Below are positions 30,447 through 33,026 of a DNA stretch of 55,685 nt, in pieces. Position numbers and translations under genes: made by a program. Source of the stretch: Prevotella sp. (GTDB lineage Bacteria > Bacteroidota > Bacteroidia > Bacteroidales > Bacteroidaceae); the NCBI GenBank assembly GCA_017645905.1, contig JAGCNO010000095.1, positions 1 through 55,685 on the forward strand, read 5' to 3'. The notes beneath the pieces are model-generated. The model saw only the letters and a program-made list of their open reading frames with translations, ran no database searches and was not told the DNA's origin. The first letter of the stretch is position 1. Every line of letters starts with the position of its first letter.

Positions 30447-30701
30447 ATGGACAGACTTGAACATATATACTCAATCATTGCCAAGGAGGGCTTTGCCGAC
30501 ACAGCATTACAAGAAATAAATAACTATATAACAGCTATCCAAAATGGGACAGAAGATTTTTCTCGATTCAATCTATCAGAGCATGCGGGACTCTGCAAGG
30601 GAGGCGCGCCTCTCATTGGGGCGTCCATCATCGCATGCTACGCGACAGCAAGCATTACAGCAGGTGGCAATGCTGAAGGCGGCAAAGGATACATAGTATA
30701 A
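30447..30701 (+). CDS. Small orphan protein, possibly the remnant of a larger gene
   Basis: 84 residues; function unknown. The first half is amphipathic helical (RLEHIYSIIAKEGFADTALQ, residues 3-22). The second half is Gly/Ala/Ser/Thr-rich with two Cys (HAGLCKGGAPLIGASIIACY, residues 46-65). From memory, the FNLSEHAGLC...LIGASI pattern recalls the N-terminus of longer polyvalent or mobile-element-associated proteins of Prevotella, so this may be a truncated copy. I cannot verify that. The GG after LCK and the small-residue tail could also suggest a processed peptide, but no modification or export genes are adjacent. It has its own promoter-like sequence. Confidence 0.45.
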   Translation: MDRLEHIYSIIAKEGFADTALQEINNYITAIQNGTEDFSRFNLSEHAGLCKGGAPLIGASIIACYATASITAGGNAEGGKGYIV

Positions 30702-30764: not shown

Positions 30765-30796
30765 TTTGGTGGTTTCAGGGAAAAGTTGTAATTTTG
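30765..30796 (+). promoter_or_regulatory. Promoter of the aromatic amino acid operon
   Basis: TTTG (30765-30768), 20 bp, TAATTTTG (30789-30796). It precedes the leader peptide ATG by 27 nt. Confidence 0.8.
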
Positions 30797-30823
30797 CCGC
30801 CAGAATCTGAAAAAGGTAACATT

Positions 30824-30883
30824 ATGACATATCAGAGTGCATACTTCTACGGCTATTATTATTACTTTGCAGCAAAGTTGTGA
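30824..30883 (+). CDS. Tyr/Phe-rich leader peptide (attenuator)
   Basis: 19 codons: MTYQSAYFYGYYYYFAAKL, with 7 Tyr and 2 Phe, including four Tyr in a row at codons 11-14, followed by Phe. It lies between a canonical promoter and the gene for DAHP synthase-chorismate mutase. Its stop codon is inside the left arm (30878-30888) of an 11-bp antiterminator that is exclusive with a terminator at 30932-30964. By analogy with known leader peptides, a ribosome stalled at Tyr codons would leave the arm free and allow read-through, and a ribosome at the stop codon would mask it and allow termination. Too short for standard gene callers. Confidence 0.85.
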   Translation: MTYQSAYFYGYYYYFAAKL

Positions 30884-30946
30884 AGCGGTTAGACGTATGT
30901 AGATAATAGGACAATGCAGACAGAAAGATAAAGCCCCGCTTCACAA
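30878..30946 (+). promoter_or_regulatory. Antiterminator of the Tyr/Phe attenuator
   Basis: TTGTGAAGCGG (30878-30888) is a perfect complement of CCGCTTCACAA (30936-30946). The right arm overlaps the left arm of the terminator. Confidence 0.8.
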
Positions 30947-30973
30947 GATAGTGACAGCGGGGCTGTTCGTTTG
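30932..30973 (+). terminator. Attenuator terminator before DAHP synthase-chorismate mutase
   Basis: AGCCCCGCT (30932-30940) pairs with AGCGGGGCT (30956-30964), extended by TCAC/GTGA in the loop with one bulged C. It is followed by the modest U-tract GTTCGTTTG. Confidence 0.8.
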
Positions 30974-31009
30974 AAATAAATTACGTAATAACATAAAAAC
31001 ATTTGAAAA

Positions 31010-32074
31010 ATGGAACTAGAGCTTCAACCCCTGAACTTACCAAGTGACAACGAACGCCCCTTCGTGATTGCCGGCCCGTGTAGTGCCGAGAGCGAGGAGC
31101 AAGTGATGGAAACTGCCACGCAGCTGGCCATGAAAGGCTGCCACAACTTCCGTGCAGGCGTGTGGAAGCCGCGCACGAAGCCCGGCGGCTTCGAGGGTCA
31201 CGGCGAAAAGGCCCTGCCTTGGATGCAGCGCGTGAAGAAGGAGACGGGCATGAACGTGGCCACCGAAGTGGCTACACCCGAGCATGTCGAACTTGCCCTG
31301 AAATACGGCATTGATATCCTTTGGATAGGAGCCCGCACGACTGCCAACCCCTTCGCCATGCAGGCACTGGCCGATGCGCTGCAGGGAACCGACATCCCCG
31401 TCTTCGTGAAAAACCCCGTAAACCCCGACCTGGAACTGTGGATTGGTGCTATGGAGCGACTGAACCAAGCCGGCGTGAAGCGTCTCGGTGCCATCCACCG
31501 CGGATTCTCCAGCTACGAGCAGAAGATTTACCGCAATGCACCGATGTGGCAGATTCCCATCGAACTGCGCCGCCGCATGCCTGAGCTGCCGCTCATCAGC
31601 GACCCCAGTCACATTGGCGGTCGCCGCGAACTGATAGCCCCGCTGTGCCAGCAAGCTATGGACCTGGGCTTCGACGGCCTTATCGTGGAGAGCCACTGCG
31701 ACCCCGACAAGGCATGGAGCGACGCCAAGCAGCAGGTGACGCCCGACGTGCTCGACTACATCCTCTCGCTGCTCGTCATCCGCGACGAGCATGCCACCAC
31801 CGAGGGCATACACGAGCTGCGCAAGCAGATAGACGAGCTGGACAACCAGATTATGGACATCCTGGCCAAGCGTATGAAGGTGTGCCGCGAGATTGGCAAC
31901 TACAAGAAGGATCATAACATTACCGTGCTGCAAGCCTCACGCTATAACGAGATTCTGAACAAGCGCGGCGTGCAGGGAACGCTCAGCGGCATGGCCCCCG
32001 AGTTCGTCGCCAAGGTCTTCGAGAGCATCCACGAGGAGTCTGTCCGCCAGCAGATGGAAATCATCAACAAGTAA
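31010..32074 (+). CDS. Bifunctional DAHP synthase / chorismate mutase (type II)
   Basis: Catalyses the first step of the shikimate pathway and the conversion of chorismate to prephenate. 354 residues. Residues 1-265 are a DAHP synthase of the KDO8PS-like type (VIAGPCSAES, RAGVWKPRTKPGGFEGHG, RTTANPFAMQ, FVKNPVNPD, SDPSHIGGRR, VESHCDPDKAWSDAKQQ). Residues about 270-350 are an AroQ chorismate mutase (ELRKQIDELDNQIMDILAKR, then REIGNYKKDHNITVLQASRY). Transcription is probably controlled by the Tyr/Phe attenuator upstream. tyrA follows after a 157-bp spacer holding a 22-bp array. Confidence 0.93.
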   Translation: MELELQPLNLPSDNERPFVIAGPCSAESEEQVMETATQLAMKGCHNFRAGVWKPRTKPGGFEGHGEKALPWMQRVKKETGMNVATEVATPEHVELALKYGIDILWIGARTTANPFAMQALADALQGTDIPVFVKNPVNPDLELWIGAMERLNQAGVKRLGAIHRGFSSYEQKIYRNAPMWQIPIELRRRMPELPLISDPSHIGGRRELIAPLCQQAMDLGFDGLIVESHCDPDKAWSDAKQQVTPDVLDYILSLLVIRDEHATTEGIHELRKQIDELDNQIMDILAKRMKVCREIGNYKKDHNITVLQASRYNEILNKRGVQGTLSGMAPEFVAKVFESIHEESVRQQMEIINK

Positions 32075-32231: not shown

Positions 32232-33026
32232 ATGAAAATATTAGTCATGGGAGCAGGCAAGATGGGGAGCTTCTTCATCGACCTGCTGAGTTTTGACCAT
32301 GAGGTCGCCGTCTTTGAGCGCGACCCGAAGCGAATGCGCTTCACCTACAACTGTCAGCGGTTCACGACCATGGAGGAGATACAGGCGTTCCGGCCGGAAC
32401 TGCTCATCAACGCCGTCACGCTGAAGTACACCATCCCCGTCTTTGAACAGGTGCTCCCCTACCTCACCGACGACTGCATCATCAGCGACATCGCCTCGGT
32501 GAAGACCGACCTGAAGGAGTATTACGAGAAGACAGGCCGCCGCTACGTAAGCACCCACCCGATGTTCGGCCCCACGTTTGCCAACCTGCAGCAGCTCTCC
32601 GAGGAGAACGCCATCATCATCAGCGAGGGCGACTACATGGGCCGCATCTTCTTCAAGGACCTCTACCAGCGGCTCGGCCTCCACATCTATGAATATACGT
32701 TCGAGGAGCACGACCGCACCGTGGCCTATTCGTTGTCCATTCCCTTCGTCTCCACCTTCGTATTCGCTGCCGTGATGAAGCATCAGGACGCGCCGGGCAC
32801 CACCTTCAAGCGTCACATGCGCATTGCCAAGGGCGTGCTCAACGAGGACGACTACCTGCTGCAGGAAATTCTCTTCAACCCCTACACCCACGACCAGGTG
32901 TCGCAGATACGCACCGAACTGAAGGAGCTGCTCGAGATTATCGACACGAAGAACGGCGAGGGCATGAAGGCCTACCTGACGAAGATACGCGACAATGTGC
33001 GACGCGATATCGAAATCAAGCCGTAA
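32232..33026 (+). CDS. tyrA: Prephenate dehydrogenase
   Basis: Oxidatively decarboxylates prephenate to 4-hydroxyphenylpyruvate in tyrosine synthesis. 264 residues. NAD-binding VMGAGKMGSFF at the N-terminus, ERDPKRM, SDIASVKTDL and the active-site His in STHPMFGPT (about residue 110); the helical dimerisation part follows. Its place right after chorismate mutase fits channelling of prephenate to Tyr. A tyrosine-specific output makes the Tyr-rich leader upstream more convincing. Confidence 0.92.
   Translation: MKILVMGAGKMGSFFIDLLSFDHEVAVFERDPKRMRFTYNCQRFTTMEEIQAFRPELLINAVTLKYTIPVFEQVLPYLTDDCIISDIASVKTDLKEYYEKTGRRYVSTHPMFGPTFANLQQLSEENAIIISEGDYMGRIFFKDLYQRLGLHIYEYTFEEHDRTVAYSLSIPFVSTFVFAAVMKHQDAPGTTFKRHMRIAKGVLNEDDYLLQEILFNPYTHDQVSQIRTELKELLEIIDTKNGEGMKAYLTKIRDNVRRDIEIKP

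Follow-up and report, generated by a model that had tools for sequence, protein, structure and literature searches.

The leader upstream of the DAHP synthase gene

The stretch of DNA analysed here (the window, 55,685 nucleotides from Prevotella sp.) carries a gene for a fusion of type I DAHP synthase and type II chorismate mutase at 31010..32074 (Pfam PF00793, PF01817), which is the gene proposed to be regulated. The next gene, tyrA (prephenate dehydrogenase, 32232..33026, PF02153), lies 157 nt downstream and is possibly on the same transcript. These genes and all leader features described below are on the forward strand. The leader is directly 5' of the DAHP gene, with neither pheA nor aspC upstream. 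Its promoter (30765..30796) was identified by direct reading, and TTTG at 30765-30768, a 20-nt spacer and TAATTTTG at 30789-30796 agree with TTTG / TAnnTTTG, the consensus for Bacteroides promoters given in PMC7366714. Just 5' of the promoter is an 84-aa ORF (30447-30701) without a Pfam match.

The leader peptide ORF (30824..30883) has 19 codons, 7 for Tyr and 2 for Phe, and translates to MTYQSAYFYGYYYYFAAKL*. When both strands of the 55.7-kb window were scanned for ATG ORFs in which a stretch of 14 residues holds 9 or more F/Y, a single one was found, and 100 mononucleotide shuffles of the window gave none. The stop codon falls inside segment B, TTGTGAAGCGG (30878..30888), the 5' strand of the putative antiterminator, which starts 9 nt past the last F/Y codon. 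By direct reading, B is the exact reverse complement over 11 nt of segment C, CCGCTTCACAA (30936..30946), and the B:C duplex has a predicted energy of -19.0 kcal/mol. Direct reading and folding place C in both the antiterminator and a terminator-like hairpin, C:D (30932..30964). In this hairpin 30932-30944 pair with 30951-30964 (13 pairs, one bulge, -23.8 kcal/mol), and its 3' end is 45 nt from the DAHP gene. An earlier note on this DNA had read the promoter, the peptide and the B/C complement correctly to the base. The terminator arms it gave (30932-30940 and 30956-30964) are right and belong to this longer stem, and the two structures are mutually exclusive as it proposed, since the B:C complement overlaps the left arm of C:D. 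Its design of two structures was nevertheless incomplete, because a pairing of B with a further segment, A, completes a set of four. Segment A, the predicted protector, covers Tyr/Phe codons at 30852..30872 (RNAalifold helix and window fold). Its boundaries are approximate because the consensus fold pairs 30865-30872 with 30878-30885, whereas the minimum-energy fold of the window pairs 30852-30862 with 30880-30886.

The 196-nt leader of the window folds with z = -3.86, which was equalled by 0 of 200 shuffles. At equilibrium, both the whole leader and the stretch 30874-30965 are predicted to adopt C:D and not B:C. The antiterminator must therefore win kinetically, before D is transcribed, as it does in known attenuators. 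The T-tract at 30964-30973 is weak (TGTTCGTTTG, 5 T among the first 8 bases) and C:D is absent from the list of a simple terminator scan, so the copy in the window may be leaky or decaying. A second leader copy in the window's genome was considered and rejected, as model R1 matched this locus alone (E 6e-22) and the other two hits had E values of 2.6 and 4.3. The hisG and ilvD genes of the same genome showed no comparable leaders. PF00800 (pheA) had no match there, and the closest aspC candidates were aminotransferases at just 25-30% identity. Loss of pheA and aspC from the genome cannot be claimed, as the assembly is 87.5% complete.

Recurrence of the leader at the operon head

Relatives comprised the 80 nearest loci found (the genome_contigs sample, Prevotella or Prevotellaceae/Bacteroidales by title). 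To these were added loci, mostly the better matches, from searches at three taxonomic ranks: 60 loci from 149 genomes in the order, 39 from 201 in the family and 20 from 118 in the phylum. A leader was counted when at least 7 F/Y fell within 14 residues at most 500 nt from the first gene, and 7 loci too short to assess were set aside. A Phe/Tyr-rich leader preceded the first gene in 161 of the 166 assessable relatives with pheA and/or aspC upstream of the DAHP gene (76/76 genome_contigs, 35/39 order, 34/35 family and 16/16 phylum loci), and the same rule was passed by 78 of 5770 control windows. None of the 26 relatives that lack both genes upstream passed the rule. These were judged at the DAHP locus alone; in at least two of them (L118 and L135) a leader lies farther upstream, before a gene that the search did not recognise. 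The window is the 27th locus of this kind, yet it has the leader and so breaks the rule of such loci. Tyr-rich codons and both stems, whose absence from relatives the earlier note had held to be decisive against it, were seen in the sampled relatives.

The leader is a feature of the pheA/aspC/DAHP operon head rather than of the DAHP gene itself. Its position before the DAHP gene, as the earlier note had it, applies to the window, whereas in relatives it stands at the operon head. No comparable ORF was found in the 300 nt before the DAHP gene of the 80 closest loci, because pheA and/or aspC precede the DAHP gene there, and this apparent refutation was undone at the operon head. In the 76 closest loci with enough upstream sequence the operon is headed by pheA (68) or aspC (8), and a tyrA-like ORF lies behind the DAHP gene in 7 of the 8 close loci followed that far downstream. 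The distance from leader start to first gene has a median of 193 nt. When the 120 nt 5' of the leader were searched for a promoter pattern of TTG/TTTG, about 17-23 nt and TAnnTTTG, 135 of 158 loci (window counted) had it, compared with 38 of 1570 random 120-nt windows. T-runs lie 3' of the listed hairpins of the relatives. The loci L105, L123, L125 and L142, which failed the leader rule, contain a weaker F/Y-rich ORF, and L120 passed the peptide rule and failed the terminator rule. L098, from a 1.2-Mb genome, keeps the normal gene order of pheA, aspC, DAHP gene and tyrA, and no Phe/Tyr leader was found at this locus.

Pairing of the leader segments across loci

Swap tests were applied to 54 loci of the order and phylum samples, mostly from different genera. 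B:C with its own partner had a mean energy of -17.16 kcal/mol versus -11.26 (sd 0.41) for permuted partners (0/2000 permutations), although shared ancestry is not fully removed by such permutations (L110/L113 and L181/L184/L185 are each of the same genus). The result was also 0/2000 in the 16 phylum loci alone and in the 22 distant order loci alone. For the pairing of the Phe/Tyr codon region with the B region, own partners gave -18.42 kcal/mol versus -13.15 for permuted ones (0/2000, 54 loci), and A:B swaps gave 0/2000 in 32 family loci and 66 genome_contigs loci as well. Loci without a hairpin or with a short upstream stretch are excluded from the swap tests, as are L098, L103 and L127. The predicted A:B and B:C pairings have at least 6 nt of B in common in 151 of 157 loci (raw count) and are therefore mutually exclusive. 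The automatic terminator finder chose the wrong hairpin at a number of loci (among them L001, L002, L030, L034, L068, L075, L078 and the window), and counts built on it are weakened because these were left uncorrected.

The B core AGCGG, present in 101 loci, is not tied to one frame of the peptide: the three frames hold it in 9, 22 and 70 loci, and it lies past the stop codon in 14, which argues that it is conserved as RNA. The last F/Y codon is 8-10 nt from B in 102 of 154 loci, a count that also excludes L122 and the weak pairings of L001 and L030. Such a gap is what a stalled ribosome leaving B free would need. Covariation was assessed by RNAalifold in alignment A1, which holds 30 Prevotella-group sequences (the window and 29 hand-picked of the 80 relatives, with L050 left out). 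Of the alignment cells, 99.6% are paired in the A:B helix and 96.2% in the terminator. For a structure derived from A1 itself, A:B and the terminator had 22 double-change cells versus 6.9 in shuffles (0/500) and a covariation score of 0.195 versus 0.141 (0/500 shuffles). Pairs with double changes (5 versus 3.7, 92/500 shuffles) and further pair types (289/500) in A1 were not above shuffles. Both-side changes occur at 4 of the 13 pairs of C:D. B:C is paired in 93.7% of A1 cells and had no covariation there, since 326 of 500 shuffles scored as high.

Codon content of the leaders

Both Phe and Tyr occur in the core of all 161 detected leaders. What the earlier note called a Tyr version is better described as a leader of Phe plus Tyr. 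Mean F/(F+Y) lies at 0.54-0.57 for the order, family and phylum samples; among the 76 closest loci it is 0.38-0.42, and the window has 0.22. The leader core AYFYGYYFYF is much alike among Prevotella relatives. Cores of 49 order and phylum leaders, which were picked for F/Y richness, consist of F to 36% and of Y to 28%, and no common order is visible among them. DAHP synthase supplies all three aromatic amino acids. A Trp codon lies in or beside the Phe/Tyr run in L021, L027, L030, L061 and L075, and also in 9 of the 49 order and phylum leaders.

In 8 close relatives with an aspC-headed operon, pheA is located elsewhere in the genome. An ATG-only scan of the 330 nt ahead of the relocated pheA was negative for an F/Y leader in all of these 8. 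Further aspC-headed loci occur among the 80 (3 short ones) and in the order sample (5). A shift from Phe to Tyr codons after pheA leaves the operon was considered and rejected, as F/(F+Y) of 0.383 (8 loci) versus 0.422 (68 loci) is a small difference from few lineages. In L202, L203 and L206 the relocated pheA is directly 3' of an ORF that we take to be TrpA-like.

Proposed mechanism and alternative explanations

The leader combines a short ORF rich in codons for the end products of the pathway upstream of the operon, a mutually exclusive antiterminator and terminator with one common strand, and a predicted, recurrent protector pairing able to sequester B. On the sequence evidence it is very probably a classical ribosome-mediated transcription attenuator of the trp/pheL type, reading charged tRNA-Tyr (and tRNA-Phe), and we infer that it would regulate the operon by aromatic supply. 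When Tyr and Phe are plentiful, the ribosome would reach the stop codon and cover B, so that C pairs with D and transcription ends before the DAHP gene. When Tyr (or Phe) is scarce, the ribosome would stall in the run and cover A, leaving B free. B would then capture C ahead of the synthesis of D, allowing transcription to continue into the operon. Without translation, A:B would hold B and the terminator would form by default.

The C:D hairpin is strong alone (-23.8 kcal/mol), as would be expected if the intergenic region held a constitutive terminator or an insulator hairpin that happens to lie near an F/Y-rich ORF. That reading is very improbable, because an F/Y-rich ORF precedes the same operon in 161/166 relatives versus 78/5770 control windows, and because B:C and A:B of a locus pair better than partners taken from other loci. 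The likeness of the AYFYGYYFYF core among Prevotella relatives could instead point to a small protein with a function of its own or to a nascent-chain arrest peptide, neither of which would sense codons. The variable composition of the 49 order and phylum cores, without visible common order, and the change of frame after the run while the RNA stays, leave very little room for such a peptide.

Control by an aromatic riboswitch, a T-box or a protein-controlled antiterminator within the same leader would have a parallel in other bacteria, where tyrosine operons are under T-boxes and phenylalanine is under attenuators (PMC1262725). In the window and 15 relatives, however, no Rfam family matched above threshold except Flavo-1 in L184, which lies away from the leader, and neither Bacteroid-trp (RF01692) nor the Rfam T-box model had a match. 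The recurring parts are moreover those of a ribosome-controlled switch, and we regard control of these other kinds as extremely unlikely.

With attenuation by the ribosome as the preferred reading, we think it rather probable that the leaders form a class-wide, unnamed family of dual Phe/Tyr ribosomal attenuators on the aromatic operon of Bacteroidia, sometimes in tandem, and that the lineage of the window is mainly Tyr-sensing, with its leader directly before the DAHP gene after break-up of the operon. Here class-wide refers to genomes with the fused DAHP gene, because at its threshold the phylum search detected this gene in no more than 30 of the 118 genomes searched, a number that includes the genome of the window. 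The class name Bacteroidia is extended to the sampled relatives from the Prevotella relatives, and L187, among the loci taken, is from outside the class.

Relation to known systems

In E. coli, pheL-pheA and trpL-trpEDCBA have a residue-rich leader peptide, four mutually exclusive segments and a terminator before the first structural gene. The present leader shares the residue-rich peptide and the four segments, and has a terminator-like hairpin before the first gene. It differs in its mixed Phe and Tyr codons, in its pheA/aspC/DAHP genes and in its Bacteroides-type promoter; the likeness is one of design. Bacteroid-trp is a Trp leader. It is likewise a cis-regulatory motif of Bacteroidetes (RF01692; PMC2864571 Table 1), but its model does not match the present leader.

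The suggestion of the earlier note that the leader may be undescribed was too strong. Table 7 of PMC1173090 gives a putative attenuator before the B. thetaiotaomicron genes pheA>hisHb>aroAIbeta-aroQ>tyrA, taken from Merino's website of predicted attenuators. The operon is of the same type as here, but the entry covers one species and does not itself state a peptide, its codons or how widely the attenuator is conserved. In Flavobacteriaceae, pheA has been described as preceded by a conserved 5' element (PMC9723704), a source that also treats leader-peptide attenuation before amino-acid operons in general. This element resembles the present leader in being conserved, structured and without an Rfam match; it differs in the group of bacteria, and section 19 of that paper gives no peptide for pheA. 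Short ORFs reminiscent of leader peptides have been noted in B. thetaiotaomicron generally (PMC7366714), and PMC6429828, a study of five genomes, mentions two uORF candidates containing F and Y ahead of shikimate genes. In the portions of the open-access literature covered by our search, no Phe/Tyr leader peptide was found described for Bacteroidia. The abstract of Vitreschak et al. (FEMS Microbiol Lett 2004) reportedly mentions Bacteroidetes/Chlorobi, and an earlier prediction of such leaders is therefore possible.

If the proposed mechanism is true, tyrosine would join the residues read by classical attenuators, and the Phe/Tyr pathway would be under RNA-level control in a class prominent in the gut. 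The leader would also provide for annotation a motif that is missing from Rfam 15. The relatives form a natural series of arrangements (an intact operon, an operon that pheA has left, a leader immediately 5' of the DAHP gene, tandem units), and this series allows tests of the ribosome-control model. Tandem units might give steeper control. By a strict script, two tandem leader-plus-terminator units precede the operon in L117, L126 and L131 (3/166), and by eye tandem units are also present in five more loci, L085, L087, L088, L192 and L197.
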